Shown: piece after piece, positions 16,547 to 58,900 of the stretch
Numbering within the stretch: position 1 is the stretch's first letter
How the letters are laid out: each line of letters starts with the position of its first letter
Program-made: the position numbers and the translations under genes
Source: Mrakia gelida
Lineage: Eukaryota > Basidiomycota > Tremellomycetes > Cystofilobasidiales > Mrakiaceae
DNA: 64,000 nucleotides
Assembly: GCA_024345305.1 (NCBI GenBank)
Contig: BRON01000014.1
Span: 930,001-994,000 of the forward strand
Direction: 5' to 3'
Notes under the pieces: generated by a model
The model's database searches: none
What the model was told of the DNA's origin: nothing
What the model saw: only the letters and a program-made list of their open reading frames with translations

Positions 16547-16719
16547 TCCCTATAGCCTTTGCTTCGTTCGCTTCGTTCTCGTTTGGTCGCTGCTCTTCTA
16601 GATACTTCTCGCCCCTCGGTCGTTTCGTTTCGTTTAGCTTTTCACGACCTGTCTCGCTTCGTTCTTTTCCCCTCCTCCCTCCCGCTTTCTCTACCTAGAT
16701 TTCCCTCCCTTCCTCCCCT

Positions 16720-16744
16720 CCCCCCCCCCCCCCCCCCCCCCCCC
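16720..16744. repeat. Poly-C homopolymer, about 25 bases
   Basis: An unbroken run of C in the 3' region of the kinase gene, followed by a short TA-rich patch (CTCTATATATC). Length is probably uncertain in the assembly because homopolymers of this size are error-prone. Confidence 0.9.
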
Positions 16745-17200
16745 ACGTACTCTCTATATATCTTCCCCCTCCCTCGGTCGCGTCGCGCTCTTGGTCCTTC
16801 CCCTCGTCGCTCCTCGTTCCTCGTTCTTTCTTTACTCTAGCTCTAGTAGTTCTCCTCGTTTCTTCCTCCAAAACACTCTGTTTACTTACTCTCTCGCTCG
16901 CTTCGTTCGTTTCCCCTTCTCCTCGTTCGCGTACGTTGCCATATCTCTACGAAACAATCACGAAATCGACGCGTTTCTTCTTCGACGAGCGAGAACCGAG
17001 TTCATCAAGATGGGGGGAGCCGAAGTTCGAGAAGCGTCATTTCTACCAAGAAATGCTGTAGACAAGCCGGCAGCACTGCCCTCTTCTCAGTGAGTAACCT
17101 AGCATGAAGATCTTCACTTTCACCCCTCCTCCGAGATCGTGCCGAAAAACGAAACGAAACAGCCTCTCTTCTCGCGCTAGCTCGCCGCCACCAAACCACC
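16745..17200 (+). other. Leader region of the arrestin-like gene
   Basis: Intergenic and 5' untranslated sequence. An ATG at 17010 opens a short frame (MGGAEVREASF...) that ends at a likely donor GTGAGT near 17092, with acceptor-like CAG or TAG near 17160-17180. This looks like a leader intron with a possible upstream reading frame. Confidence 0.35.
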
Positions 17201-19163
17201 ATGTTCTCCTCTTCCTCCTCCTCCAAACTAATCACTCCCTCCTTCCCCTCCGCCCAAACCCACGTCTTCACCGCCTCCGACGTCGTCCAGGGCAGCATCT
17301 CGCTCAGACTAGAGACGGAGGGAAAGGAGGACAAGAGGAGGTTCAAGCTCGATGAGGTTTACGCGAAGCTGAGGGTCCTGCAGGTTACGACGTATTTCCA
17401 GGTGTTGAGTGCTACGCAGTTTGGTGAGTGGATGGAAGGGGCTAAGGAAGGGGGGGAGAGGACAGGAGGGAGAGGGAGGAGAGGGAGGGAGGGAAAGAGG
17501 GAGTGAGAGGAGGAGGAAAGCGATGTCGAGCTCTCGGACTGATCCGATGATGGGTTTGTTTCGTTTGGTTTTCGTTTGAGCTACAGATATCAGGGAGGAG
17601 AAGACTGCTCTCGTTCGTCGACACGCCCTTCCTCTTCATACGTTTTCGGGAGGAAAACTGACATCTTTACTCGCTCCCTCGTTGTTCTACAGCACTCAGA
17701 AGATCTCCTCCTCTGGTCAGCTTCAACCTCCTCCTCCTCCTCCCTCCCCGACCCCAACGCTCCTCCTCCCGTCCTCGAGATCCCCTGGTCGTTCACGCTT
17801 CCTGGGAGAGAGGCGAACCTTCCGCCGAGCTTCGAGGGTGGGAACAGGGAGGGGAAGACGAAAGGGCATGAGGTTGCTAGGATCGTTTGTGAGTTCGGCG
17901 AAGCGAGTTCAGATCTCGAAGCTGTTTTCTTCCTTTGAGGAGAGCTGACTTCTGGCTTTGAATGTGTGGTAGATTCCGTCAAGATTTCTGGACACAAGGC
18001 GGGAAGGTTTTCTTCGAACGAAAGGACGGTGCTTCCCTTCATCTACATGTTCGTCCTGCTTTTTTTTTTTTTTTTCTTTTTGCTCTCCGTCGTCGTCTCG
18101 CTTCGTCCCGACTTCCAGTCTTGGAAGGGACTCAGGTCACGGGCTTCGCTGGCTGACTTCGTTTACCCGCATACCGCAGGCCTCCTGCATCGATCAACCC
18201 TTCCTCGATCCCTCTCCCCATCGTCCCTCGACCCTCCGGAGAGCAGCAGTCCCTCTCGCCCATCGCTCCTCTTCAGCCAACCGCTCACGAAGGCTGGATC
18301 ACCTCGACGGCGGAGGAGGAGTACAGAGAGAAGCTCTTGGGGAAGAAGAACAAGGCTGTCGTCAAGGTAAGTCCCATTCTCACTTCGTTCCACTCGAGAC
18401 CGAGATCCCAACGCGACGCGCGACGCGTCGAGCTCACTCTCCCCTTCGTCCCTCTCGTTCACTCCTCAGTTCTCGGTCCCCTCCCTCCCCACCTTCCCTC
18501 GAAACACACCCATCCCTTACTATCTCTCCATCCTCGTCCTCGGACCCGAAGGAAAGGGAGAAACGACGATCAACCTCCCTTCTCCCTCCGAGGTTCGACT
18601 CTCCGCTCGACGAACGGTCAGCACGACCGCCAAGAAGGCTTCGCAGAAGTGGAAACAAGCTGCTGGAATCATCACCGATCTCAAGGACGAGAAGCGAGTT
18701 TGGTACAAGCCTCACGGGTGGGTGGACGTCGAAGGAGGGGAGAGGAGATGGGGAGGAGAGATAGTTGTGGTTGGGGAGTTCGAGCTTACGGGGGACGCGA
18801 TGCCTACGTTGAGGGAGGAGCAGACGAGGGGCTTGTTGTGCTGTGATGTGAGTTCATCCTTCCTTTCTCTCTTTGCCTCTCGAGCTAATTTGGCGGCGAA
18901 GGGAGGAGACTGGATCTTGATCTCATTCTCGTCGACGCGTCGCTAAGCTCGCTGTTTTCTTCGTCTCCTTCCAGTACGCCATTCGCCTCGAGCTTGCCCT
19001 CAAGGGTATCAAGAACGAGATTGACGAGCACAAATTCTTCCCTCTCGTCATCTCTTCGGATCCTCGCGTCGGTCAAGATCAGCAGGACGAGAAGTCATCC
19101 GACATCCCTCCCGACTACTTCTCGCTCGAGTACGATTACGACGACGAGAAGGATGAGAAGTGA
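17201..19163 (+). CDS. Arrestin-like (alpha-arrestin) protein
   Basis: Seven exons: 17201-17423, 17587-17612, 17693-17888, 17973-18048, 18180-18366, 18470-18847 and 18975-19163, 424 residues. The arrestin N-fold pattern is seen in SISLRLETEGKEDKRRFKL, IPWSFTLPGREANLPPSF and VYSVKISGHKAGRF; the C-fold in IPYYLSILVLGPEGKG and ending YAIRLELALKGIKNE. Alpha-arrestins are adaptors that recruit HECT ubiquitin ligases to plasma-membrane transporters; no PPxY motif was seen in my reading, so ligase recruitment is not shown. Two introns begin GTTCGT. Intron 18049-18179 contains a run of 15 T. The C-terminus is acidic (YDYDDEKDEK). Confidence 0.75.
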
Positions 19164-19489
19164 GATGGTAGACAGCGTCCTACTTCTTTTGCTGATTCGG
19201 TCTAGCCTATAAGATTATTCTACTTGCCATGGACCAACCGTCTTTCTTCCTTTTTAACCGAGCGAGAGACGCGAAGAGGAATTGCGCGACGAGACTTTCC
19301 TTTCCCCCTTCGCTCCTCCTGGGTCAACGCCTCGAGCTTCCCAGGTTTTTATCCAGTCGGAGAGTTTTAGAGCAACTTGTCGGCAGCCAACCTCGGACCC
19401 ACGCGGTCTGTTTTTAAACGAGGTTTCGATGCGCTGGCGCTTCAACTTCGAGTCATCCCTCTTCCCTTCGACTCACCAACTCCTTCGAC

Positions 19490-20645
19490 ATGTCAACTCG
19501 TCCTCTCATCGAGATCTCCTCAGTCACGCCCGATGACTACGAAGCGGTAGAAGATGCTTTTGTTCGAGCGTTTCAGCACACGGAGGTGAGATTTCGAGGT
19601 GTCGACGTCTGTCCGGTCGAGTCCGTCAACTTGACGAACGAGCTCACAACTGATGTCCTCTTCGTCTTTCTTCCCCTTTTGTTTTCCAGATCTTGACTTC
19701 CATCTATCCTCCTTCGATTCAGCCGTCTATCGAGACCCGAGTCGGTGAGTTGCGCTCCCCGCTGAGGTTTCGTTCTCCTCGCTTGTTCCCTCTCCGCACC
19801 TTTCCTCTTCTCACCTCCCTCCTCTTCGTCAACGGCTCTACTAATCGCCGCGCTCTCTTCCCTCACCTTTCTTTTCCTACAAGCTCCCCGCGTCCAAAGT
19901 CACATCAAAGGAGCCCTCTCCCCTGCCTCCGATCTCATCTCGATCAAAGCGACGCTCGACGGTCGAGTCGTCGGTTCTGCAGACTGGCACTCTCCTGTCG
20001 ATAGGAGGTCAACGGGAGGAGATCCTCTTCCTGAGGAGGTGAAGATCAAGGAACTTTCCGAAGCGAAGTCGAAGGAGGAGGGAAGAGCGTCTTGGGAGGA
20101 TGAACTCGACGCGACAAAGGACTTGGTCTTTCAGGCGAAGTTCCTCGAGCAGCTGCCTAGGGTTCGAAAGAAGAGGTACGCGGGGAAGCCGCATTGGTAT
20201 CTGGTGAGTCAATTGCGTCCCTCCTTTCGATTCGGTCGGACGGAGAAGGGGAGCAGCGAGTTTTGCTGGTGAGAGCGAGCGTTGACGCGTCGTCGTTCCT
20301 TTCCCTCCTCACGTTCTCTCTCCTCCTAGGCCTCCCTCTTCGTTCACCCAGATTATCAAGGAATGGGAGTAGGGAAAGCTCTCCTCGCCTACGGAACAGA
20401 TCAAGCAGACGCGGCAGGGGTTCCGACGTGGCTCGAGTCGTCCGCTCATGTTCGTCCCTCTCCTTTCCCTCCTTCCCCTTTTGTCTTTCTGATCTCTTGT
20501 GCGCTGATCGCTCTCACAGGGTCGTCACGTCTACTCGAAGCAAGGCTTCGAAGTCATCGACTACTGCGAGATCGCTGGAGACGAGTTCGAGGGAGGGTGG
20601 CTTCGGTGGCCTGGGATGGAGAGGAAGCCGAGTCCTCGTGTTTGA
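19490..20645 (+). CDS. GNAT-family N-acetyltransferase
   Basis: Five exons, 19490-19585, 19690-19744, 19884-20203, 20330-20449 and 20520-20645, give 238 residues. The acetyl-CoA-binding motif A is clear: LFVHPDYQGMGVGKALL near residues 160-176, followed by GRHVYSKQGFEVIDYCEI, the typical beta6-beta7 end of the fold. N-terminal region (TPDDYEAVEDAFVRAF) matches the first helix of the domain. It should transfer acetyl from acetyl-CoA to an amine; substrate unknown, probably cytosolic as no targeting signal is seen. One intron uses GTTCGT and one acceptor is AAG. Intron 4 contains GACGCGTC. Confidence 0.85.
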
Positions 20646-20852
20646 TCGTGATAATATGAGACAGTTGTATAGAAAAAATTGAGCAGCCTCTTGCGTCCGG
20701 GAGGCCTTCTCAGCATCTTTGGGCTCGGAAATGCGGACAGAACGACGCGTCAAACGGCAAGCCGGAGTCAAAGATCTGGTTTAGATGAGACTTCGAACCT
20801 TTTTTTCAGCCAGCAGCAGTACACGTGCGTAAACATGAAACGATAAGCATAC

Positions 20853-22916
20853 CTAACATCGAACGAAGGGATCCTCAAGCTTTCCAAACAAGTCTCGATC
20901 CCAGCAACCCCACTCGACGGCGACGCCCTCCGTTCCTCCACCTCGTTCCATCTTCCTCTCCTCTTCTGCCCGATCCATCTCCTCTCCATCCCGCCCATCC
21001 TCGAGCTCGAACTGGTCCTCGTCCTCCTCATCCACACCGATGGGGATCCCTGATCCATTGACGTGGAAGGGGGAGAGCATCCTTCCTGCGACGACGATGA
21101 GGGAGGAGGGATTCTCGACGACGGGAGTGGGAGGAGTAACGAAGAACTCGTCAAGGAGATCCCTGTCCGCTTTGGTGATGTCGTCGACGAAGAACGACTC
21201 GTCCGAGTCCTCTCCCTCTTCATCGTCGTTGTCTTCGTCCTCGTCGTCCGATCCGATGAGGGTCGAGGCGATGGAGGAAGTGGAGACGGCGGCGGCGAAA
21301 CTAGGGAAGAGGACTCCAAATCCGAGTCGACGAGCTTGTAGGCCGTGAGAGGAGGGTCGATGGTAGGCGCCAAAGGGGACTGCGGAGGGTGGGAAGACTG
21401 GCGAGGGGTTGTGAGGAAGCTCGATTGCTTTCTTGTCGTTGGGAGGAGTGGGGATGCCGCTGTCGGGGTCGTCGTCCTCGGGAGTGATAGGGAAGCCATC
21501 GTCGACGGAGCTCGTGGAACTGAGAGATAGGACGAGAAAGAAGTTGCGAGTCAGAATCGAGAAGAGAGAGGTGGGAGGCGAGAGAGAGTGTCGATTCACC
21601 TGTCCGAGCGTCTGTGTTTGTTGAAGTCGTCCTTCGCGTCCTCCTCCCTCGGGCGAACCGTCCACCTCTCGATTCCCTTGACCTCCCCAGCCAGCTCGAG
21701 AATGGTGATTCGGTGGAAAGGGTTGAGCTCGAAGATGGCGAGGAGGAGGGAGAGGGCTTCTTCCGAGAGAGGGAAGTTGTGCTGGAGGAAGAGTCGAGGC
21801 TCGAGAGTGAAGGCGGCGAAGGCAGGGTCGTCGAGGTGGGCTTCAGCCCAGCTGTTGAACATGAAAATGAAAAGACAGAAGATGAGTCAGTAACCGGGGG
21901 AGGCGAAGAGGATCGAAGACAAGAGAAAGGGAGGGGAAAACGAACGGGCAAATCTTGACGATCAGAGTGAGCAGCAGAATTCCAAGCGACCAAACGTCGT
22001 TGGTGACTGAGGAGTACGACGTCTTTGGGTTCTGGAAGAGTCCATCTCGGCATTCTGTTGGTGCGATGAACGGACGGGAATGGGCGTTAGGGGGAGCGAA
22101 CACGAGGACGCGAAAGAAGAACGTCGTCGCGTCGAACTGTTGCGAGACAAGACGAACCAGGAGACCTGCGAGAAAGAGATCACAAGGGCAGAGTCAGCAT
22201 GCGATGAAACTATATGGATATGAAGCTCGGAGCAAGGAAGAGACGACTCACATGAAGCAACTCGACCCCGTCCCAAACTCCCTCGTCCTCTCCCTCCCCG
22301 TCGCCAACCCAAAGTCGGCCAGATAAACCTGCCCACCCTCTCCACAAAGAACGTTCTCGGGCTTGATGTCTCGATGGGCCACTCCGTAGTTGTGACAGTA
22401 TTCCACCGCATCCAGGATTTGAAGGAAGACGGACGAGATGAGGTTGGGAGAGGAAAGGAATCGACCTCGCGTGATGTGTTCGAACAGATCTCCTCCTTCG
22501 ATCCAGTCGAGAACGAGGAACGTCCATCCTGGGTGGGACTTGACGATGCGGTGGAGGATGATAATGTTGGGATGGGCGGAGACTCGTTGATGAAGGTACT
22601 GTTCGGATTCGTGGAAGGCTCGTTCGGAGGCGCTGAGTCCTTTGGTCGAGAGGCATTTGATGGCTGTAGAGGAGGAGAGGTGAGAGGATTCAAAGGAACG
22701 GAAAGGACAAGGAGGAGGATCAGGATGGGTTGGACGCTGGGAAAAGAGGGAAGAGAAGATCAGGTACGAGAAGGACTCACCAACGAGCTGATCCTCCTGC
22801 ACGTCGCGAGCGAGGACGATCTCGCCGAATCCTCCTTTTCCGACAAGCTGGAGCAGCTCGAAGCGACCGTTGTCGATGGAGGTGCCGATGAGGGTTTGGG
22901 TGGAAGAGGGTGGCAT
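20853..22916 (-). CDS. Ran1/Pat1-like serine/threonine kinase
   Basis: Six exons: 22916-22781, 22663-22252, 22165-22158, 22054-21946, 21851-21600 and 21519-20853, 527 residues. Kinase features: glycine loop GKGGFGEIVLA near 27, AIKCLS, HRDIKPEN near 142, DFGLA near 163, then CFMSPECRDGLF where the SPE motif is partly encoded by the 8-nt exon 22165-22158 (GTCTCCTG). The order LDWIEGGDLFEHI, VFLQILDAVEYCH and NDVWSLGILLLTLIVK fits the Ran1/Sks1/Vhs1 group, which control meiosis and nutrient responses in yeasts. After the kinase domain comes a disordered acidic tail (IGSDDEDEDNDDEEG). Transcribed away from the F-box-like gene, sharing the 22917-23952 region. Confidence 0.82.
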
Positions 22917-23952
22917 GGGTGGAAGGGGAGGGGAGGGGAGAGGAAGGGATGAAGGGAGGCAAAGCGAGAGGAACGAAAGTTGGGGGGAGGTGAGGCGAGG
23001 CGAGGAGAAGGGAAAGTGGCGCGAGATAGCTATGTTTCAAGGGGGGTGTGGTTGTTGGCGAAGATACGGGTAGAGGGAGGTGGGTACCAGATGGATAGCA
23101 GGAGTGAACAAAGTTGTTGGGAAGAGAAAGGCAGGAAGGTGAAAGGCGAGGGTTCGCCACTAGTCGAGAAAGCTGGGAAGGGAGATATGCGCGTGCCTAA
23201 TTGCGATTCGATTGCGATGAAGATCACGATCCAAATAAAAGTAGCAGGGCCGAGGCCTCAGGTGAGGGTGGTGAGCGAGCGTCGTCGTCGAAAGACGCGT
23301 CGTCGCGGTCGAGGGAGTGGCTCGTGAGTCGAGAGGAGCTGGTCTTCTGCTAGTATCTCGGGCAAGAGGGGACAGGTGGGTTGGGTCGAATAGACTCGAA
23401 TGGGGGCTGAGTATCTCGAGGAAGCAAACGGGCAACATTCGATCCAGGACTGAACGAGGGAAGGACCGTGAATCAGGGCGAGAGGGAGGGCGATCCAAAG
23501 GCGAGAAGCCAACGCTTTCCGTTCAGACCCCACGGGCGAGGGACTTGTAGAGAAGAGACAAGTTCTGAAATGGAAGTAGAGGTATGTCTCCGACTGAGAG
23601 AGGTGACGACGACCCTACTGCGACGAAAGCCACCCTTCTTGAAGAGCTGGAAAGAAGAAGGAAGGAGAGACGAGGAACCGACGACGGAGCGAATCGCGAG
23701 CAGGTCAGCTGCAAGGGCGACGTTTCTGCTTCCAACGTTCGGAGGGACGAAGAGGGATGGGTGAGAAGATGAGCTGCTGCAATGGATGTTTGTCGATGGG
23801 ATGAAGCTGCAGAGGCCAAGAAGGAGTTGGGAGGGACTTTGCGAAAACGATGAGCTCGACTCTTTTTCTCCTTCCCTTCCCTTGCTTCCCTCCCATCCCT
23901 CACGACGAAACGTTGTTTTCTTGCGTCTCGACACGCTCTCTACCTCTTCACT
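22917..23952. promoter_or_regulatory. Divergent promoter region, Ran1-like kinase / F-box-like gene
   Basis: About 1 kb between two outward start codons. Left part is G-rich on the plus strand (mirror of a pyrimidine-rich leader for the kinase). An AT-richer patch with CCAAATAAAAGTAG lies near 23230. A GACGCGTC copy is near 23293. No gene supported. Confidence 0.4.
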
Positions 23953-38650: not shown

Positions 38651-40604
38651 ATGACTCTTCACCTCGCTTCCCTCATCCTCTCGGATCCAGCATTGCCGCA
38701 CGAGTCGGAGTACACTCTCCCTCCCATCACGCTTTGGGCCTTCGAATCAATCGACTCTGTCCACGTCCTTCCCTCTCGACTTCGGCTCGACCTCTTCCTT
38801 CGTGCGGTTGGGTTGGCGGCTGGGAGGGTGAGGGGAGCAGGTGGGAGGTTCAGGAGAAGGGAGAGAAGTTCGGAGGACGGGGGGAGAGGAAGGTTTACTT
38901 ACTTTGTGAGTCTATAGGAGGAGGAGAAAAGGACAGAAGGAGCGGGCGAGGGCTGAACTCGAGCTCATCAACTCCTCCTCCTTCCTCTCTTTGCCTCTCT
39001 CCCTCCGCTGGCTACGATCGCCTCTTCGCTCGACTTTCCTCGCCGCCAGATCTCCCTCATCGACTCTCCAATGCCAGTCGAACACCTCCTCGTCCCCTTC
39101 TCTTCATCCCTCCCAGCGAATCGTGACGTCGTCCGAAACGACCTCGGTCCCTTCATCCCCAAAGTCAAGGCGCTCGTCAACAGCGAGGAGCCTCTTTTCC
39201 GGATCAGGATCACCGAGGAGGTAGAGGGAGAGGGTAGGACTGTGCTGAGCTTCAGTTGGTTTCACGGCCTGGGTGAGTTGCCCTCGCAGAGATTTGTCGG
39301 AAGATCGTGAGCTCGATTCAGCCGGAGCTGACCGTCGTCTCTCGTTCTCGTTTCTCCAGGCGATGCAGCAGCCTTCAGTCTCCTCCTCTCCTCCATCTCC
39401 ACTATCTACTCTACCCTCCTGTCATCTACCTCAGAAAACATCGACCTCCCCTCACTCTCCCTCCCTCAACCAACGACCACCCATCTCCACTTCGATCCTC
39501 CCTCCGACGAGGCCGTTCGCGAGTTTGCGATCGTTCAAACGGAGCCTCTACCGATGGCGGAGGTCTCCCGTCGCTACAAGGAGGGAGCCTCGGGGAGTCA
39601 GTCGGTGATGATACGTCTCTCGAAGAAGGAGCTGGGGATCTTGAAGGCGAAGGCGAGCGGGGAGGACGCGTCGAGCTGGATCAGCACGCAGGATGCGTTG
39701 AGCTCTTGGTACGTGGAGGTGTTGAGGTCTTGCGGTGTGGAAGCGCAGGATGTCATCAATGCAATCAACGTGAGTTCCGGACTCCTGTATATCGCTCGTC
39801 GAACGAAGGCGGCTCTGCTGACTCCGTTCGTTTTTTCTCGTCGATCTTCAGTATCGTTCCCTCCCACCCTTGGACCCTTTTAACTCTCTCTTCCCCGTCC
39901 CTCTCACTTACCTAACGGGCAACGTAGCTCAAATGCGAGCCTCTCCAATATCACCTCCTTCAACTCCTCCCTCCCTCGTCCCAACAGCCCAAGCTCTCCG
40001 CGCGGACCTCCACGCTCTCGCCGAACCTCAACGGCTTTACGACTGGCTCTCGGTGCAGGCTGAGAGGCTGGAACGAGCGACGGACGAAGGAATGGGACAC
40101 TGCGTGCTTCCGACTGAGGGATCCGTGGCGGTGAACTCGAATCTGAGGTGAGTTTGCGAAGCGAGGGAAGAGCGAGGAGTTTCGAGTTGACGCGACGCTG
40201 ACTTGATTCGCTTTGCCATCGTTCGTTCTTTACATCGTTCCTCAAGATTCGACTGGAACCTGCCTTTTGGCTACCCACAAGGCTCAACCTCCTATCACAG
40301 CTCGTTCTCAGGCTATCACTTCCTTCGAGTTTTCCAGCCCAACCCGTTCGTCGCGTTTCGTTTCCTCCCAGGCCATCGGCCATCTCGTCCTTCGTCTTCT
40401 TCTCGCTCGAAGCGCCGGAGCCTGATCCTCTCTCGTCCTCTTCCCCTTCCCCTTCACTTGCTTGTACTGTTCAGGTATCCCGGAGACGAGGCAGCGAGCG
40501 GTGGAGGAGCAGAGCTCGTCTTCAGTGTTCGATCGGAGATCTTTTCAGAGGTTGTTGAGCTGATGGAGAAGGATAGAAGGGAGGGCTGGGAGAGACTCGT
40601 TTGA
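38651..40604 (+). CDS. BAHD-type acyltransferase (transferase family)
   Basis: Six exons: 38651-38905, 39050-39272, 39360-39769, 39852-40147, 40247-40345 and 40475-40604, 470 residues. The catalytic HxxxD motif is in SFSWFHGLGDAAAFSLLL near residue 157; the second conserved region of the superfamily is represented by FDWNLPFGY close to the end, in place of the plant DFGWG. Fungal relatives are O- or N-acyltransferases of secondary metabolism and detoxification (trichothecene acetyltransferase type) using acyl-CoA. No signal peptide. Start is the first in-frame ATG; an upstream exon is possible. The gene ends about 100 bases before the left inverted-repeat arm. Confidence 0.75.
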
Positions 40605-40699
40605 GGTTGGAGGTCATGGATGTATACAGTCGTCGTATTCTCTCCTCGACCTGCAAGCTCTCTCTGAAACAGCTCGTGGAGGAAGTCGGGCGGGAGAGG

Positions 40700-41825
40700 A
40701 GAAGGGTCCCGACGCGTCTCGATCGATCAGCTCGAGTCAAAACTGAAACGACCGAGATGGAAGCTTTGAACGAATACGTGTGTGCGCTGGCATTGCTGGA
40801 CGTATACGAGGAGGCGGAGGAAAGGCTCTAGAGGGAGGAAGAGCGATGTTTGTGAACCAAAACAAACGACGTCGCGAACGTGTCAACAAACGCGCGTGTT
40901 CGAGGTCGTTTGGTCTCTCTGCTTGAGAAACTGATTCCACTGGGTGAGAAAGCGAAGAGCGAAGTCCAGACTGCTACGAAGCGGTAAGAAGAGAGCTTAT
41001 CTGTCCAGGGAGAGGTGTGAGAGCGCGTCGTGGTTCCCAGTCGAGAGACGCGTCGTCGAGAAACTCGCGTCGACTTTTCTTTCGCTTTCCTTCGTGCTGG
41101 CTCGAGAGAATCGGCGCAGACTTTCGAGCAGAGGTCGAAGCGAGGAGCAGGGACGGACCCCTGCTGACACCGCTTTGAGCGACGAGCCGAGGGGAGACGG
41201 AGCAGGGTTTCTGAACAAGCAACAAGCAGAACCCCGCTGTTGGTTGGGAAAGGAACGGAATGAGAAGAAAAACAAAGACGGGGGGCTGCTCTTTCAACCT
41301 TCCGATTTCGACGACTGTCCCATCCTTTTGGTCGATATCCTCTTCTTCTCAGCAAGAAGGACGAGACGAGAGCAAACCTTTCGCGCCTGCCCCACGAAGT
41401 GGAGAGACCGAGGAACTGGAGGAGGGAAGCCCTTTCCGTGCGCGGAAACGAAGAGGCTGCTTCGGGCTGCAGAGAAACGATTAATGATCTGTTGCTGCTC
41501 CTATCCGGTTCCTGATGGGCAGATAAGATCTGGTGACCTCAGAAACAATTTACGAAAACAAGAAAAACAAGAGGTCCTGCCCTGTCGAAGGGGGCTCTCG
41601 AAGAGGAGAAAGTCTCGAAGGGGTGAGCTCGCCTCTCTTTCCCTCTTTCCCTCCACCGTCAAACACCTGGAACTCAACATCCGGCATGCCTTTGCCCTCG
41701 CCAGACGACTTGTCCCCTGGTGGTTCCTCTCTCCCACCCACCTCAAGGAGATTAACCCCGACGTCTTTGCTCGCTCAAACTCTTCAAACGAACCAACCTC
41801 CAGCACCTTCCTCTGCCCAAGGTCC
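40700..41825. repeat. Left arm of ~1.1-kb inverted repeat
   Basis: Reverse complement of 48865-47750. By eye the inner part (about 41250-41825) is identical to the right arm; the outer part (about 40700-41249) shows scattered substitutions and small indels, about 10 percent. The arm carries the upstream region and the first 46 or so codons of the transcription factor. The inner edge is sharp: both arms share CCAAGGTCC and then diverge (ACCTCACTGC here). The outer edge is near the sequence GACGCGTCTCGATCGATCA. Confidence 0.9.
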
Positions 41826-41850
41826 ACCTCACTGCATACTATACCGATAA
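41686..41850 (+). pseudogene. Truncated copy of the transcription-factor 5' end
   Basis: ATG at 41686 gives a 54-residue frame that begins MPLPSPDDLSPGGSSLPP, the same as the N-terminus of the factor encoded at 47889, and runs identical to ...PAPSSAQGP before the arm ends; then PHCILYR and a stop. It has the same upstream sequence as the intact gene for at least 435 bases, so it may be transcribed. It lacks the zinc cluster. Confidence 0.75.
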
Positions 41851-42318
41851 GGTCGGAACGAATCACGCCTTCCGTTTCCATCCCTGCATCATTCTGAGTC
41901 GTCTTTCTCGCAGCGTAAGGCGTAGGAGATGGAACAACAACGCGACGCGACGCAACCTTCGAATACTTTCCTTTCCAACTTCAAACTTCGTCGCCGAGCC
42001 CGTTCGACCGCGAGCTCACCTCCCAGCTCTAGAAGAAGTCATATAGCGTGTGAAAAGGTCCTGTCGCAACTTTGAACAGCGACGCAGCCGCCGGAAGCTC
42101 CTTCGGCTTCCCGTCCTCCCGCTCCCGCTCCTGTCCTTGCTCTCCTTGAAGTACACGAGAAGGTCATGATTTCGCTCGCTCGTAATGTAATTAGAAGAAA
42201 GGACAAGAGTAAAAGAAGAAGCATAGAGTTTACGTAGCAAAAGCGAGAAACCAAGAAGACTGACGACTCGAAATCCAAAAACGACGACGCGACCGAAACG
42301 AAATCGACTCCCTCGCTT
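41851..42318. other. 3' region of the transcription factor inside the inverted-repeat interval
   Basis: About 470 bases downstream of the factor's stop codon, between it and the left arm. Includes AT-richer sequence near 42170-42235. No gene seen. Confidence 0.35.
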
Positions 42319-45300
42319 CTAGAACTGCTGAGAACTGCCCCTTCCATCGATTCCTCCCACTCCCTCGTCCGCACGATGCCCACCTCCATCCGCTCCTCCG
42401 CTCATATCCGCGTAGCCGAGTCCTCCCGTAGATCCCATTCCCGACGGCCCTCCCATCGACTGATTGGGGAAGGGGTGGTTGAAAGCTTGAGATCCGCCGA
42501 ACATCGAGCCCATTCCTTCGCCTTCTTGAAGAGAGAGAGGATCTCCAGCACCGAAGTTGCTGCAGAAGAGAAAACCGAAGATGGGAAGGGCGAGCGTCAG
42601 CGTCGAGAAGGGCAAGAGGAAGAGAGAGGGGAGAAGGTGAAACGAACGAGAGGTAACCCGTTCCCAGCAGACTCGCCCAGTTCTGCCACTGAGGCTGATC
42701 GGGGTTGTCTTGGCCGTTCTGGTTGAGGGTTCGAGTAGCGAGGTCGAAGGGAGCCGAAGGAGGAGAGAAGGACTCGGGAACGAAGGTCTCGTCTCGGAAG
42801 GAGGGTTGCATGACTGTGAAGATGAGAGACGAAAGAACGGGATCAGCGACGACGAGCGCGACGAGCAGATTCCGAGCAGTAGATCAACTCACGACCGACC
42901 CAAGAGGCGACGAAACTGTCGTCGCTGTGAAGGAGAAAGCAGAGTGGAAGGAGGAAAGGAAGAGAGTCAGGCCGCGTAACGAAGGAGGGAGGGTAGATGG
43001 ACGAGAAGAGAGAAACTCACTCGAACGCGTTCGTCGTCGAGGCAGTAAGCCTGAGAGGAGGGATCGAGGGATCCGGGCGTCTTGCATATCGACTCGGCGG
43101 TACAGCGGTTCCTCCAGCGGTTCGATTCGTCCTAGAAGAGTCGTCCGACTTGGTGGATTTGGACATCGAGCTCCTGTCCCGTTGATTCGATCCGTTCTCG
43201 TTCAGCCCCTCGAGTTCAGGCTTCGGGCTTTTGATGGCTCGATCGATTCCGAGAAGGATCCTGTAGCATCGACGAGCGGTACTCTGGACCGAGTCGGGAG
43301 GGTAGCGAACCTCAGTTGGTGATCCCGAGGACGTGACTCCCTTCGTCGATTCCCAACCGAGCTCGATGAGGAAGTCGTAGGCTGAACGAAGAGCGTGAGC
43401 CGCGGCGGCTTGAGCGGTGGGAGACGAGGAATCCGGCTGAGACCTGTCGACGATTCGGTTGGCGAGAAGGACCTGGAAGCGACGAGACGAGGTGATGAGC
43501 TCGCGTCGAGGCGAGTGAGGTCGAGAAAGAACGAAAGACTCACGAGACAAGACGAGTAGACCTGACCCAGACTCATCCACCACCAGCCAATCATGATACC
43601 CTTCCAATTCTGGGAGACTCGCTCGATCAACTCGACGGCAGCTTCGGCGCAGACGACGGCGCTGGAAGGAGAAAGATGAAGTCTCGTCAGCGAGGGTCAC
43701 CACGGTTCGACGAAGAAGAACGAGACGAACCTTTTCCTCGCGAGATTGAACTTCAAGGAGTCAGGTAGCGGATAGCCTCCTCCAGGAGTGGCACAGAACT
43801 GATGTGCAGAAAACGTCGACGATCAGAACGACTTTTGAAACGAGCGAAGAGAAGAAAGCGGACTCACGAAGAACAAGAACGGTCGGTAAAGCTGGGAGCG
43901 AGAAGAAGAAGGTCAGCAAAGGAGAACGCTCGATGAAAGAGCCCGATGGACGTACCAGTATTCGACAGTTGGTGTAGCTGCGCATGGGAGAGCGAAGTCA
44001 GCTCGAGAAGTCGCAAGACACGTCGAAGGGAACGGGATCGAGAGCTCACCGATTCAGCAGCACATGAGCTTGAAGCTTGTAGGCTCCACCTAGGGGCGTC
44101 TTGGAAGGGTCCTTGAGGAATTCCGGTACTCCCTGATGCCAGAGAAGAAGCTGCTCTTCCAGCACCAAGACGTCGTGGGCATCTGCGAAGCGAGAGGGGA
44201 AGAACGAGCGTCAGCGACGCCAACGGAAGAGGCCTGGTAGATCCGAGGAGACTCACGAGGGAAACTCTTGGGGTTCTGAAGGTCGTAGAGACTCCTGAGG
44301 ATCCGACACTTGATGGCGAAGAGCTTGACGACCTGGGTGGGGAAGGAGAAAGGATAAAGAGGCGCGTCAGCTTCGAGCTCTTCGTCGGCTCGAGCGACGA
44401 ATCGAGAGACTGACCTGGATGAAGAACTCGATCTTCTTCGGAGACGATCCCTCTCCTCTTGCTACGACGGAGTTTTCGCCGAGGTCCTCGTCGTCGAAAG
44501 GTTCGGGGAAGCCGGAAGGGTCAAAGTCCTCGTCCGTCGACGTGGTTTGGCGGTAGAGCATTGCTGACGAGGTAGCTTCCATCTGCAGGCAAGCTGAGCA
44601 ACATAGGGAGGAGGATAAGGTCAGCTGTGACTTCGAACCATCGCTCGAGGTTGGAGAGCTTCGAAGAGACGTACCAGCCCAAGCTCGCTGACGGACGTTC
44701 CGTTCGAGAGGTCCGAAGGTCTTGTTGACTTTTTGAACGTGAAGCTGAAGACCTCGCGACATGAGGATGGCGAGACCGACGGCGTTGGCTGAGAGGTTTC
44801 CTTTCGAGCAGCTGCGAATGATGAACGAAGGAGGGAGAAACGAGGGAAGTCGGTCAGCTCGACATTCGTTCGAAACGAAGAGAGAGAAACGAGACGCGTA
44901 CGATTGTGAGTACTGGCACAGAAGGAGGAGGTAGTCGATGATCTGAACGTTGCCCATGAGGAGGACTGTAGAGATAAAGAGAGAGATCGTTAGTCCTGAG
45001 TCGAGATCGCGACGAGAGGCTCGCCAGAGGCAGAAGGAGGGGGGACTCGACTCACTGAACGGCACGGACATCAGCGTCTGAGATCGCCTGAAGTAGACTC
45101 CTCCAGAAATGTTGTCGTCCTTCCCTGACCGAAGAGCGCAGGTGATGCAGAAGAGGATGTTGAGGGTCGCGAGGAAGATGTGATCTGCAGCGATGAGGTG
45201 CTCCTCCGTCGGCCACGTCCAGATCTTCTCGTACTTCTTGAGCAGCGATGGCCAGTGAAGGATCGGGTACACTGAATGGAGCGAAGGAGGATCGTTGTCA

Positions 45301-47889
45301 GTCGAGAGAGAAGAGAAGAGCAGAGGCAAAGGGAACGAGAGGGCCGTACGAGGATGGACTGCGAAGGGAAGAGATGAGGGGAGGAGATCAGCCAACGGAA
45401 GAGAGACGACGACGACGACGAAAACAAGTCGAGGGCTGACCTTTGTCGTGGTAGAACGCTAGTAGATCGTCGGCAACCTTCCTCTCCGGCAGATCGTACT
45501 TCGCGAACACTCGTTGTTGTAGATTCCTGACGTCGGCAGTCTGACCCTTGACGGCGCTCTCTCCTCCAGTTTCACCGATCGTCGCGCTCAATCCGTTGGC
45601 GATGGAACGAGGAGAGAGAGCGAGGGCTGTCGAAGAAGGTGGTCGAGACGTTGAGAGAGGGAGGAGTCAGCCAAAGGAAGGGGTGAGGGTCGAAGAGAGA
45701 GGGTGGGAACGAACCTTGAGTGACGAACGCGTCCTCGGGCTGACCAGTCGGATGGAGACGAGACGCTTTGATGACCTGACCGGCGAGTTTTGCTGCTGCG
45801 TTCTCGACGAGTTCCGTTGACACTCCATCCTCTGTTTTGACGAAGAACGAGAACGAGATCAGTGGTGAACTCACCTCGCGAAAACGCGTCAAGAACGAAG
45901 GAGACTCGAGACTCACGACCTTGCCTCTCCCACCTGCTCGCTCGATCCACCATCGGATGAGTTTCGAATAACGCTCCACCTCTACCCGTTCCCTCCATCG
46001 CCACATCCTGATCTCCCTCCTCTGAACTCTCTCCAGGCGAGAACTCCCTCTCTCCAGTGTCCGGTCGAACGAGTCCATGATTCTCCGCTCGCGAGAGGTT
46101 CGGGTCGAGCTGTCCTGCGAAGGAAGCGTTCGGCATCGTTGGTTGGTAGGAGTTCGGTATAGACTGGTGCTGCTGATGAAGGTGGTGATCTGAGGGAGGG
46201 TAGGGAGCTGAGGAAGTCGAAGCGAAGGGCTGAGGATGGGCGAACGGTTGAGGAGGGACGGCGTTGAAGTAGGGATTCGAGGGTTGGGAGGTGAGGGTCG
46301 GACGAGGGTAGTTCTGCTGCATGTGGTGGTGATCCTGGCGCTGAGGATGATCTTCGTCCTGGAAGTAGTTTTGCTGCTGGTGCTGGTTTTGGTTGTACTG
46401 CTGCTGCTGGTGTTGCTGCTGCTGCTGAGGAGGGTAGGGCTGAGGTTGGAAAGGGAGGTGTTGAGGATAAGGGTACTGCTGATGAGGATGGTTTTGAGGA
46501 GGACCCATGTCTTGACGAGAGGAGCTCGATCCTGACGGAGGGTAGCTGGATTGATGCGAAGGGAGAGGTGGAGGAGGGTTGGCGTGGTAGGGAGGTCCAG
46601 AGGGAGAATCGGAGGATATCGAGGGAGTTCCGTTCGAGTCTCGGCCCGCTGAGGGTATCGAAGAGTTCCGAGATGAAGACTCCAGACTCGCCAGCTTCTG
46701 TTCGAGCTCCTCGACGTATCTGGGGGGATGGAAGGAAAGAGGAAGGAAGTCAGCCCGGCGTGTTTGGTCGAGAGCGACGGCGCGCGCGAATCCAGCCTTC
46801 TCCAGCATCACGCTCTCAAGAAACGGGGTGAGCTGCACGATAACAGAGAAGAGGTGTAGCCAGAGGTGCTAGCACCAGAATCTGGAGTGGAGGCGAGCGG
46901 TAGGGCTGGATGGGAAGCTTTTCTTCGACCTCAACTCCCTAGCCTCGCTCCTGGGTCGTTTTGCTCCCTTCTCGATCTCAAAGCCCCGCCCAGGCCCGAC
47001 TCTACGTTTTTTCGGACTCACTTGATGGTTACTCGTCTCGGTGGAGGAGGGTAGGTACATTCGGCGTTGTTGTTGGTACAGATAGCACAAGGAGTCCCTC
47101 CTGCGAATGACCGGCAGCAGTAGCAAAGGACGAGGAAGAAGGAGGGTCAGCGTTTGGAACGATATCAAAGAAACGAGTTTGGGCAACGAACCATCGCACT
47201 GAGAGATGAAGCGTTCGAACGAGAGGAGAGAGGCGAAGAAGATGGTCGATTAGAGATATGTCAGCAACTCGAGGGAAGAGAAGAAGGGCAAGGAAAAAAG
47301 AAGGGAAGGGAAGGCACCTTCGACCTCCTTTGGCGACAACCGCTGAAGAGCGAGAACGAAGACGTTTTGATCAGCTCTCGATCCTGCGAAGTCCCTGGCT
47401 AGTATAGACTCACAAGCACGCTCTCTCCACGCGCTTTCGCGCTCTCTTAGGGTCATGTCCCTCGTCTTCAGCCTGGTCGTCGCCGTCCTCAGCATGCTTG
47501 AGTGGGCGACTCTTCTTCCCAGCTCCTCCTCCTCCTCCTCCAGCTCCCGAGCTCCCTCCTACGACCTGTCCTCCGTGCCCTGCTCCTCCGCTCCCACCGC
47601 CCGTTCCACTAGGGCCTGCGACTGGAGCTGCTGCTGCAGTAGACGAGCTTCCAGCCGAGGAGGAGGATTTGAAGGGATGATGAGAACCTCCGGCCATCAA
47701 AAGGTGAGGAGGGAGAGCGGAAGGATGGGGAAGGGAGGAGGAAGAAGGAGGACCTTGGGCAGAGGAAGGTGCTGGAGGTTGGTTCGTTTGAAGAGTTTGA
47801 GCGAGCAAAGACGTCGGGGTTAATCTCCTTGAGGTGGGTGGGAGAGAGGAACCACCAGGGGACAAGTCGTCTGGCGAGGGCAAAGGCAT
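42319..47889 (-). CDS. Zn2Cys6 fungal-specific transcription factor
   Basis: Twenty-two exons from 47889-47414 to 42559-42319 sum to 3630 coding bases (1209 residues). Micro-exons: 47342-47318 (25 nt), 47198-47192 (7 nt), 45358-45350 (9 nt), 43977-43956 (22 nt) and 43891-43868 (24 nt). After splicing, the zinc cluster reads RACFGCRQRRSKCDGG plus PCAICTNNNAECTY (CX2CX6CX5CX2CX6C) near residue 160, with a linker and coiled-coil start (VEELEQKLASLE). A Gln/His/Pro-rich region follows, then the fungal-specific middle domain (HPLYPILHWPSLLKKYEK, CSKGNLSANAVGLAILMSRG, RQRAWACL). Nuclear regulator; target genes unknown. Its promoter and first codons lie in the right inverted-repeat arm, with an inverted second copy beyond its 3' end. 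Confidence 0.87.
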
Positions 47890-48865
47890 GCCGGATGTTG
47901 AGTTCCAGGTGTTTGACGGTGGAGGGAAAGAGGGAAAGAGAGGCGAGCTCACCCCTTCGAGACTTTCTCCTCTTCGAGAGCCCCCTTCGACAGGGCAGGA
48001 CCTCTTGTTTTTCTTGTTTTCGTAAATTGTTTCTGAGGTCACCAGATCTTATCTGCCCATCAGGAACCGGATAGGAGCAGCAACAGATCATTAATCGTTT
48101 CTCTGCAGCCCGAAGCAGCCTCTTCGTTTCCGCGCACGGAAAGGGCTTCCCTCCTCCAGTTCCTCGGTCTCTCCACTTCGTGGGGCAGGCGCGAAAGGTT
48201 TGCTCTCGTCTCGTCCTTCTTGCTGAGAAGAAGAGGATATCGACCAAAAGGATGGGACAGTCGTCGAAATCGGAAGGTTGAAAGAGCAGCCCCCCGTCTT
48301 TGTTTTTCTTCTCATTCCGTTCCTTCCCAACCAACAGCGGGGTTCTGCTTGTTGCTTGTTCAGAAACCCTGCTCCGTCTCCCCTCGGCTCGTCGCTCAAA
48401 GCGGCGTCAACAGGGGTGCGTCCCTACTCCTCGCTTCGACGTCTGCTCGAAAGTCTGCGCCGATTCTCTCGAGCCAGCACGAAGGAGAGCGAAAGAAAAG
48501 TCGACGCGAGTTTCTCGACGACTCGTCTCTCGACTTGACCACGACGCGCTCTCACCCCCCCCCCCTGGACAGATAAGCTCTCTTCGTATCGCTTCGTAGC
48601 AATCTGTTCTCCTCTCTTCACTTTCTCACCCAATGGAATCAGTTTCTCAAGCAGAGAAACCAAACGATCTCGAACGAGCGCGTTTGTTGACACGTTCGTT
48701 TGTTCACAAACATCGCTCTTCCTCCCTCTAGATCCTTCCCTCCACCTCCTCGCATGCGTCTAGTGATGCCAGCCTACACGCGCATTCGTTCAGAAGCGAG
48801 CTACTCTTCGTCGGTCCCTTCAAGTTTTGACTCGAGTTGATCGATCGAGACGCGTCGGTCGGGAT
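47750..48865. repeat. Right arm of ~1.1-kb inverted repeat
   Basis: Reverse complement of 41825-40700. It overlaps the first 140 bases of the transcription-factor coding region (47889-47750) and about 975 bases upstream of it. Differences from the left arm lie mostly in the outer half, including a C-run of about 10-12 near 48560 where the left arm has a mixed sequence. Beyond 47750 this arm runs on into the intact gene. Confidence 0.9.
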
Positions 48866-49774
48866 TCACTTCCCTCCCTCCAATTCTTCTCCTCCTAGCT
48901 CTTCCCTGCAGAGCTTGCAAGGGAAATAGAGCGCACTCCGTCTGTACCGAAGCATCACGATCGACCACACACGAGCCCCTCCCAGCCCACCCTTCTATCC
49001 TTCTCCATCAGCTCCCTTTGGAAAGATTTCCGATCCAACACTGAAGACGAGCTCTCCCCCTCTTTCTTCTTCCTTGCGTCGTCTCCTGACCCCAATAATG
49101 TTACTCCATGAGCTCACAAGTCCACGGATACAAGCCTCGTGCCGCCTCTCCACTCACATCTGCTTCAAAGCTGCTGGGTTTGGGACAGAAAATCCCACCC
49201 GACTCGCCTCGTCCCTCGTCCCAAGCTCGTCTCACGCCTCGCACAAAACAAGAAGAAGAAAAGAGAAGAAGAGAGATCATGAAATCGTGAACAATAACAA
49301 GTCCAGATAAGATGGATACATGTAGATAAACAAGCAAAAAAACAAACCGAACGAACGGAAACGCGTCGTCGTTTCGTTGCTTTCCTCTTTCGGAGAGCGA
49401 ACGGAGCTGGATCGAAGCCTAAACTAAGGAGCGACGGGCGAGTACGTAAAGTAAGGAGTCGAGCGGGCGAACGACATGCGAGATCGTCACGGAGGGGTTG
49501 AACGAACGAACTCGCGTCGAGCGAACGAGCGAGCGAAACAAACACATGGGTTGAGTTGGGTTCTACATCTTTGGTAAAGAGAGTGGTGGGTGGTGTTGGG
49601 TGTTTAGTAGTAGTAGTGGTTAACTGTCGAGGTCGAGGGCGAGCGAAGAGGAAGAGAGGGAGGTCAGTTTGAGGGACGAAGGGAGAAGACGGGGAGGTGG
49701 CACGGAGAACGGCTCGACTCACCATCGTTTCAGTTTTCTCCATAGTCATCAAGTTCCTACACCGAGTGAAGAGT
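48866..49774. other. Region between the right arm and the Ser-rich gene
   Basis: About 900 bases. The right part is the 3' untranslated region of the Ser-rich gene and contains a 99-nt intron, 49722-49624 on the minus strand (GTGAGT, CTGAC, GACAG), about 50 bases after the stop codon. The left part may hold distal promoter of the transcription factor. No other gene seen. Confidence 0.4.
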
Positions 49775-55963: not shown

Positions 55964-58900
55964 ATGGCCATCTCCCCCGCCGACACCCACCCTGTAACCG
56001 AGAGCAGCATCGTCAACGAGAAGGGCGAGAAGGACGATGGCTCAGGCAACGTCGAAGAAGCTGGCTCGTACGAACGATCCAGGGAGAAAGGTCCCACCGT
56101 GATGGACTCTGATCAGCTTTCAGAGCTCGGAAGGATCGAGAGGACTACTACACATCGTGGACTCAAGTCTCGACACGTTTCTATGATTGCTATGTACGTA
56201 AACACTCGCCCACTCGAGCGAGAGGGAAGCGAGAGGGAAACAAAAGCTGACCTCTTTCGTCCTCGGTGCTTCTTATCGTCCTTTGCGTGAAAACTTGATG
56301 CGTTAACAGTGGAGGAGCCGTTGGAACTGGTCTCATTATCGGGTCTGGTAAGTCTTCTTTCCACTCTCTGTGCTGGTGACAGATTTTCTCGGGGGGGAGA
56401 GGGGGTCGCGGCTAGGTTCAGACCCGACTCGAACGTCCCTCGCCTCGCGCAAGAAACCTCCGCTCACCTCCTCTCCTCCCTCTCCCTCCTTCCAGGTCAA
56501 GCTATCGGACGAGCTGGACCCGTAGGTCTTCTCATAGGATACATAGTTATGGGAGCTGTGTGCTTCTTCGTGATGGTTTCCCTTGGAGAGGTGAGTCTTT
56601 GCTGGGAGGAGGCGAAGCGTCCAGCCGTCTCGCTCCCTTTCTCCCTTTCGACCGGCGTCGCTGACCTCAAATTTCTCCACTCCCTCTCGCATCCACTTCT
56701 CGTAGATGGCTACCTACCTCCCTCACAAGCAGGGATTCGCTGGATACGCTACTCGTTTCGTCGACCCAGCTCTTGGATTTGCCCTTGGTGCGTCGCGAAT
56801 TCTTTAGGCTGAGACGCCGAACGCTCAAACATCAACTCACTCACCCTTTCTTCCTCTCCCTTCCTGCATCTGTTTTCTGCCATCTAGGATGGAACTACCT
56901 CTTCAAGTACCTCATTGGTGAGTCGACTGGATCTGCTTATTTGGGCTGAGCCGTCGAGGGTTCGACCGCGCTCAACTTAACGACTGACCTCGCCGCTCTT
57001 CCCTCCTTTGTTCCCTCCTTTCCTCACGCAAACAGTCACTCCCAACAACATCGTTGCCTGCGTCGTCACTGTATGTATCTTTTCGCCCACCTGTGGCCGT
57101 CTCGACGAGCCTATCGAGTTCCGGACGCGGTCTCTCGAATCCTGAACGAGGTCAAGCTCACGCGTCGCTCTCCCTCTCGTCTTTCCCTTTCAGATCAACT
57201 ACTGGGACAACAAGAAGTACAACCCTGCCATTTGGGTCTCGCTCGTCATTGCCGCCATCTTTACCATCAACTTGCTCGGTGTAGCCGTCTTCGGAGAGTT
57301 CGAGGTGAGTCTAGCTTTGCTTCCCGCCCGACTCGACTCGTTCCCGCTCGAGCCCGCGCGCGTTTCCTGATTGCAAACTCGCGCTTCCTCTCTCTCTTCT
57401 CTCTCCCTCTCTCAGTTCTGGATGTCTAGCATCAAGGTCATTGTCCTCGTCGGTCTCATCATCCTCGGAATCGTTCTTGATCTCGGAGGAGGTCCCACTC
57501 ACGATCGAATCGGCGAGTCCTCTGTCCCCTTTCGCCTCTCATCCACAGCCCTCGCTGACTTCCTGTTCACTCTAGGTTTCCGTTACTGGAAGAACCCTGG
57601 GCCGTTCGCCTACTACATCTTCCCCGGAACCACCATCGGTCGATTCCTCGGAGCCTGGTACGCGTTCCCCAACGCGCTCTTCGCCTACATCGGAACGGAG
57701 CTCGGTTCGTCTTCGAGTCCCTCGAGACTTCGACATCGAATCTAACGCGTCTCTCTCTGTATATGTTCAGTTGGAGTCACGGTGGGAGAGTGCGCTAACC
57801 CTAGGAAACAAGTCCCCCGAGCTATTCGATCTACCTTCTGGCGAATTCTCGTCTTCTGTGAGTCGACGAAACGAACTCGTCGCGACTCGCTTCCCTCGAG
57901 ATTGAAACTGACGCGTCTGCTTCCTTCCTCTCTCTTCCCAGACGTTGGAGGAATCTTCGTGATCGGTCTCCTCGTCCCCTCGAACTCTCAACTCTGTACG
58001 TGGTCTTTTCAGCAAGACGTGAGCGCGGAGAAAGACGAACGCCGAGTTGATCCTCCCTTTCCTTCCCTCCCATTTTTTTTCCTCAGTGACCACCGCTCTC
58101 AAGGCTCCTGCGAATGCGGCCGCCTCGCCTTTCGTCGTCGCCATTCAAATCGCCAAGATCAAGACTCTTCCCTCCATCCTCAACGCGTGAGCGACTTCGA
58201 GATCGAGACGACGCGTCGAGCCTCAGACTGACTCCTCCCCTCCCTCTTCCCTTCTTTCCCCTCTTTCTTCTTCACTTTCTCCTTCCTCCAGCTGCATTCT
58301 CGTACGTTCGAGACTCCGCGAGATCGAGACGACGCGACGAGCCTCGAACTGAGTCTCTCCCTCCCTTCCCCTCCCCCTTCCCCTCTTCCCTCTTTGTTCT
58401 TTCCACCTTCCAGCTCTTCGTCTTCTCTGCCGCCAACTCTGATCTCTACATCGGATCCAGGACTCTCTTCGCCCTCGCCGTCGAGGGACAAGCTCCCGCG
58501 ATCTTCAAGAAGGTGTCCAAGCGAGGAATCCCTTTCCCGGCTTTGATCTTCTGCACTGCTTTCTGTGGACTCGCTTACTGTGCTGTGAGTTCACGATTCC
58601 ATCCCGCCCACCACGATGAACATCTACTGACTCCAGCTCTCGTTACGAACCCGCCCTCGTTCGAACAGTGCGCCGCTTCCGCCCTCACCGTGTTCAAGTA
58701 CTTCGTCTCGGTCATCTCGATGCTCGGAGCCATCACCTGGATGGTTATCCTCTACTCCCACATGGCGTTCATGAAGGCCCTTAAAGCTCAAGGCATTGAG
58801 CGATCGTCGCTCCCGTACATGGCTCCTTTCCAGGTAAGTAGCTCAGAAACTGCGTCGACTGCCGTCGTTCTTCGTTCGACTTCACCTGACCTTCGCCCGC

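Follow-up and report, generated by a model that had tools for sequence, protein, structure and literature searches.

In a 64,000-nucleotide stretch of contig C14 of the Antarctic yeast Mrakia gelida (positions 930,001 to 994,000, hereafter the window; GC 55.9%), a gene for a Zn2Cys6/Fungal_trans transcription factor is enclosed by two inverted copies, or arms, of a 1.3-kb sequence that contains the promoter region and the start of the first exon of the gene itself. This inverted layout is real and larger than first described, and chance is out of the question. The locus is best explained, in our view and with moderate confidence, by an inverted partial duplication and by recombination between the copies that would have included gene conversion and at least one inversion of the gene body, giving a near-neutral flip-flop.

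The window was compared with itself by BLAST at a threshold of E <= 1e-5, and one inverted pair was found, which joins the two arms (coordinates in Table 1) over 1343 columns at 90.2% identity (E=0); besides the arms, no inverted pair was present in the window at that threshold. The whole unit measures 8.6 kb and the gene-body interval 5.9 kb. The original prediction, made from the letters of the window, had described the promoter and first exon of the factor as inversely repeated past its 3' end, with arms at 40700-41825 and 47750-48865. The repeat was found where it had been placed, but its length had been underestimated, each arm extending about 200 bp further on the outer side. The 54-residue stub expected in the left arm was recovered as 54 codons from ATG to stop, and the two arms do end at the same codon position, the common sequence stopping after ...CCAAGGTCC. 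When 40700-41825 was searched against the genome (34,857,517 bases in 25 contigs), two places were returned, namely both arms, with no third copy; place counts from this search are lower bounds for repeats. Exon 1 and the leader of the factor matched only themselves and the left arm.

Identity along the arms is divided into sharp strata. Positions 41170-41825 align with 48404-47750 over 655 identical bases with one 1-nt indel; counting outward from the inner end, 576 gap-free matches are followed by the indel and then by 79 more. A four-segment fit gave a Bayesian information criterion of 587.9, compared with 771.1 for uniform divergence and 591.5 for five segments, and in this fit 111 of the 645 aligned sites of the outer arm region differ, the divergence being about 8-35% depending on the stratum. 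With a boundary placed after the data had been seen, the inner region (0 of 640 differing sites, 41185-41825) and the outer region (111 of 660) were distinguished by Fisher's test at p ~1e-35. The block at 40593-40808 is far more diverged than both of its neighbours and represents a stratum older than the rest or else a piece that was replaced. Because the identical tract runs through coding sequence, 5' leader and upstream DNA without distinction, it is most naturally read as the product of gene conversion between the arms, and it is strongly indicated that the inner 655 bp were made identical in this way. Coding constraint was rejected as the source of the identity, about 516 of the 656 left-tract bases lying upstream of the modelled ATG. 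The interval is thus bounded by long, nearly identical inverted repeats, and the strata, seen in one genome, are evidence of homogenisation and bear the mark of the recombination between arms that had been proposed.

The divergence of the outer arms also bears on whether the pair was produced during assembly, by a fold-back or a mis-joined haplotype. Contigs from FALCON-Unzip can mix haplotypes, which counts towards such an origin. We find it scarcely credible, since the arms are 8-35% different outside the tract and the long PacBio libraries, at 230x, had cut-offs exceeding the 8.6-kb unit; a 5.9-kb spacer separates the arms, and both copies are in the assembly. A fold-back was judged unlikely on the same two grounds of outer divergence and long libraries. 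The PacBio libraries of the M. gelida MGH-2 assembly were cut off at 20 and 30 kb (PMC9872599), and its descriptions give 25 contigs or scaffolds, 34.9 Mb and a GC content of 55.7%, obtained with PacBio Sequel and Illumina sequencing, FALCON-Unzip and Pilon (PMC9872599; PMC12749792). A mobile-element origin of the arms was judged unlikely, two copies having been found; the arms were not searched for transposons, and an Rfam scan of the window, which returned 0 matches at the gathering score, has no bearing on that question.

Which arm is native was assessed from their outer ends. The last exon (40475-40604) of an intact acyltransferase-like gene extends into the left arm. A diverged paralog of this gene was located at C1:1746668-1747914 (L032; 68% DNA identity, query bases 1-1282 of 1534), and because it has its stop at the same place and a similar C-terminus, the last exon in the window is in all likelihood genuine. 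In the right arm there is a remnant of this exon (L033) in which, relative to the intact left-arm exon, 5 bp are deleted, the frame is shifted and the stop is lost. At 14 differing sites in the exon region, among them a few edge bases just beyond the arm, the left copy agrees with the C1 paralog at 8, the right copy at 2 and neither at 4. The intact exon and the agreement with the paralog on the left, and the frameshifted relic on the right, make the left arm the likely native copy. The factor gene body is now joined to the right arm, judged derived, which suggests that it once belonged to the native left arm and has since changed sides.

The opposite polarity was also considered. If the right arm were native, the factor would always have pointed leftward with an acyltransferase gene upstream on its right; exon 1, the promoter and the whole acyltransferase gene would have been copied inversely to the left, and the right-hand acyltransferase gene would have been lost except for its last ~95 bases. 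The relic at 48968-49062 fits this history, to which we give little credence: it requires the loss of almost an entire gene, the search of the acyltransferase gene against its own genome found on the right side only the last-exon relic, and the flank at 49063-49774 matched itself alone.

In the history that we favour, a small inverted segmental duplication would have taken the acyltransferase 3' end, the intergenic DNA and the factor's promoter and first 46 codons, and placed the copy beyond the other end of the factor gene. Inverted duplications made by fold-back or template switching figure in the literature. Both copies would then have recombined by ordinary homologous recombination. Conversion would have homogenised the inner 655 bp, and one crossover or more would have turned the 5.9-kb gene body round, so that it left its native left arm for the right one, a step proposed because the acyltransferase end is intact on the left and a relic on the right. 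The outcome would be a flip-flop that is neutral or almost so and stays invertible through homogenisation, with no dedicated switch, since either orientation gives the same protein and the same proximal promoter. Recombination between the arms is well supported, and the arrangement is suggestive of a past inversion of the gene body. In an ade2 inverted-repeat assay in Saccharomyces cerevisiae, the intervening DNA is inverted in about half of the recombinants, by crossover or by long-tract conversion (PMC6334234).

The effect of inversion was evaluated by flipping the interval in silico. It had been claimed that recombination between the facing arms would flip the interval with the frame kept, and this was borne out: the factor was retained letter for letter from ATG to stop, with a new start at 41686 on the plus strand, and the gene is intact in both orientations. 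Upstream of the ATG, 436 bp are the same in both orientations, or 516 bp if the one 1-nt indel is ignored, and the first substitution lies 517 bases from the ATG. Farther upstream the sequence differs between the orientations, and a flipped factor would have the acyltransferase stop 1,082 bp upstream of it in place of the right-hand flank. The regulatory switch envisaged in the original prediction finds no clear support here; because the proximal promoter is common to both orientations, regulation could change only via distal sequence, through which a switch is possible. Plain homologous recombination suffices for the inversion, and no search for a recombinase or a recombinase site was made. 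We doubt that the factor gene inverts at an appreciable frequency, keeping its protein and core promoter and exchanging its distal upstream sequence (acyltransferase side or right-hand side), with control of the factor then differing among the cells in a single culture or among the products of a single meiosis.

In either orientation, the spare promoter region faces the 3' end of the gene, and antisense transcription into the factor may be a side effect. A self-antisense circuit, in which the spare promoter would drive antisense through the factor as negative feedback and selection would keep the arms alike, would make use of this aim and of the full proximal identity of the spare promoter, but conversion without selection already accounts for the sharp strata, and we consider such a circuit very improbable.

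Several points weigh against a past inversion. The homogenised tract is a sign of conversion, and conversion can take place without crossover; one orientation only was present in the single assembly examined. Polishing with Pilon might account for the loss of a few differences inside the tract, but hardly for its contrast with the 8-35% outer divergence. Two histories free of inversion yield the same map, one by duplication of the whole acyltransferase gene and loss of its right copy, as set out above, and one by duplication of the whole factor and loss of its left body. In the latter, the factor gene and its upstream DNA would have been duplicated inversely, tail to tail, and the original body deleted, leaving the promoter and 46 codons. 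Two events would then be enough, the left stub would be a relic and homogenisation could have come later. We regard this as unlikely: neither remains of a second factor body nor a palindromic centre were seen next to the gene, the spacer (as 41830-42337) matched itself alone in the genome, and the arms are the only inverted pair in the window. A clean deletion would leave the same picture. Inverted duplication as such is not special, since further inverted pairs occur on the contig: several were found in a background sample of 264 kb of C14 (840001-1104000, window included; ~0.8% of the genome), among them pairs bounded by long terminal repeats (LTRs), and all of the others with a separation below 10 kb fall in a repeat-rich stretch at 1.02-1.10 Mb. 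Finally, a Saccharomyces interval between 4-kb inverted repeats underwent no flip in ~53,800 mitoses and 950 meioses (PMC9731477). By analogy, inversion would be expected in Mrakia, and it may be rare, given that this comparable interval stayed unflipped.

Table 1. Positions, in window coordinates, of the genes, arms and arm strata at the factor locus.
Feature	Position	Strand	Remarks
Acyltransferase-like gene	39071..40604	+	5 exons, 378-aa model, intact; hand-spliced, no internal stops
Left arm	40504..41829	+	Acyltransferase gene end, intergenic DNA, factor promoter region, first ~46 factor codons; judged native
Arm stratum 1	40504-40592		7 of 84 sites differ
Arm stratum 2	40593-40808		76 of 216 sites differ
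Arm stratum 3	40809-41169		28 of 345 sites differ
Arm stratum 4	41170-41829		1 of 659 sites differs; mismatch at 41826
Homogenised tract, left arm	41170..41825	+	Partner 47750-48404; 1-nt indel at 41249
Exon-1 stub	41686..41850	+	54 codons, ATG 41686 to stop; faces factor 3' end
Spacer, left arm to factor stop codon (factor 3' flank)	41830..42318	.	Second copy not found in own genome
Zn2Cys6/Fungal_trans factor gene	42319..47889	-	ATG 47889, stop 42321-42319; last intron of model uncertain
Right arm	47746..49062	-	Present upstream region and exon-1 start of factor; judged derived
Homogenised tract, right arm	47750..48404	-	Identical to left tract bar one 1-nt indel
Last-exon relic of acyltransferase	48968..49062	-	5-bp deletion, frameshift, stop lost

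The factor protein was compared with Pfam and with related proteins. The last intron of the gene model gave a frameshift, and protein queries were made with the last-exon frame ending SSQQF, which was picked by eye. Both domains of a Zn2Cys6 fungal transcription factor were recognised in the predicted protein, PF00172 (Zn_clus) at 37.1 bits (cut-off 21) and PF04082 (Fungal_trans) at 71.1 bits (cut-off 23). Four proteins were obtained from 7,982 scored candidates, one from Mrakia frigida, two from Phaffia rhodozyma and a distant one from a Claussenomyces MAG (metagenome-assembled genome). The M. frigida protein (P0001) aligns with 79% of the factor query, including exon 1, at 79% identity, and the block SRRLTPTSLLAQTLQTNQ in the N-terminus of the factor is common to P0001 and P0006. 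Because related proteins match this N-terminus, exon 1 as modelled is probably correct, the exact start codon being less certain. A chimeric query returned, as 1 of 162, a 198-aa piece of factor exon 1 on a 2,037-bp contig; the proteins from the factor, acyltransferase and chimeric searches all came without gene context. Scans of contig collections confirmed no relatives with P0001, either among 67 pattern matches in genome contigs or among 32 in viral contigs. Within the M. gelida genome, pieces of a diverged factor copy (79-87% in DNA) were found at C15:1121512-1122559 (L028, L029) and, ~31 kb away on the opposite strand, at C15:1089968-1090037 (L030). Together they may be what is left of a decayed paralog; the own-genome searches showed no arm sequence beside them.

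The acyltransferase-like protein contains the sequences HGLGD and FDWNLPFG, which we take to be BAHD-type motifs, and the name is a lead only. Neither a recognised profile nor a solved relative placed it among the BAHD proteins, a Pfam search at E 0.01 and a PDB sequence search at E 1 both giving 0 matches, and the 1 protein that its search returned out of 7,997 candidates was a European Nucleotide Archive (ENA) piece on a 3,946-bp contig. A NAP-like gene at 36.6-38.0 kb is among the left-hand neighbours.

Other repeats were recorded on the same contig. Window positions 16509-23509 (C14:946509-953509) are inversely repeated at C14:855402-862410, 84 kb away, over 7 kb at 99% identity, and this pair could invert a stretch reaching into the window. 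The 7-kb segment contains an open reading frame (22248-23036, minus strand) that is protein-kinase-like, judging by its motifs. Of 17 listed places of the segment, itself included, 10 are on C14, which suggests a local family expansion. Two elements at C14:1040261-1045103 and C14:1049563-1054402 are inversely oriented and 99% alike, each with identical 228-bp direct end repeats, and look like LTR retrotransposons by layout only. A short direct repeat (78 columns, 82% identical) is present at window positions 58198-58394, beside a frame that we take to be permease-like.

Bacterial invertible promoters use short repeats. As in those systems (e.g. fim), the DNA between the inverted repeats in Mrakia would carry or swap promoter context; the bacterial promoters differ in depending on site-specific recombinases (PMC4238957), and no such site was searched for in Mrakia. 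The Saccharomyces chromosome XIV flip/flop comprises 4-kb repeats around 24 kb with 15 genes, occurs in both orientations across strains and species, and has homogenised repeats and a record of repeated inversion in evolution (PMC9731477). It resembles the Mrakia locus in that inverted repeats of genic DNA are homogenised, and there the interval does invert between them; the Mrakia arms are shorter (1.3 kb, of which 655 bp are identical), enclose one gene and are known from one assembly, and in Mrakia, unlike Saccharomyces, the repeated sequence belongs to the inverted gene. In Ogataea (Hansenula) polymorpha, the MAT region inverts between identical inverted repeats of 2,049 bp, at low frequency in mitotic growth and on induction by starvation, and MAT expression is altered (PMC4238957). 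Inverted repeats around regulatory genes are common to both loci, and homologous recombination was proposed in Ogataea as one possible mechanism. There, however, the repeats lie beside the genes, whereas in Mrakia the proximal promoter would travel with the gene, and expression need not change.

In word searches of the open-licence literature, judged for the most part from the lists of papers, no description was found of a gene flanked by inverted copies of its own promoter and first codons. The view in the original prediction that such a layout had been described for no fungal transcription factor needs to be qualified by the Sclerotinia sclerotiorum MAT locus, in which 3.6 kb invert between 250-bp inverted copies of part of MAT1-1-1 (PMC3574095). 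Both loci have an inverted repeat built from a piece of a regulator gene and an interval of similar order of size. In Sclerotinia, the inversion truncates MAT1-1-1 and is found 1:1 in meiotic progeny (PMC3574095), whereas in Mrakia the repeat consists of the promoter and the start of exon 1, and inversion would rebuild an intact gene. The M. gelida locus is a compact natural case in which inverted repeats derived from a gene's own 5' end would permit inversion without damage, with internal sequence evidence that the repeats recombine. If orientation varies, the locus would show a cheap flipping of upstream context; if it does not, the locus still records conversion strata between inverted repeats. 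As a basidiomycete locus with one gene, it provides a parallel to the Saccharomyces flip/flop and the Sclerotinia MAT inversions, and it differs from the known systems in having repeats made of the promoter and first codons of the gene they enclose, which inversion would therefore rebuild.

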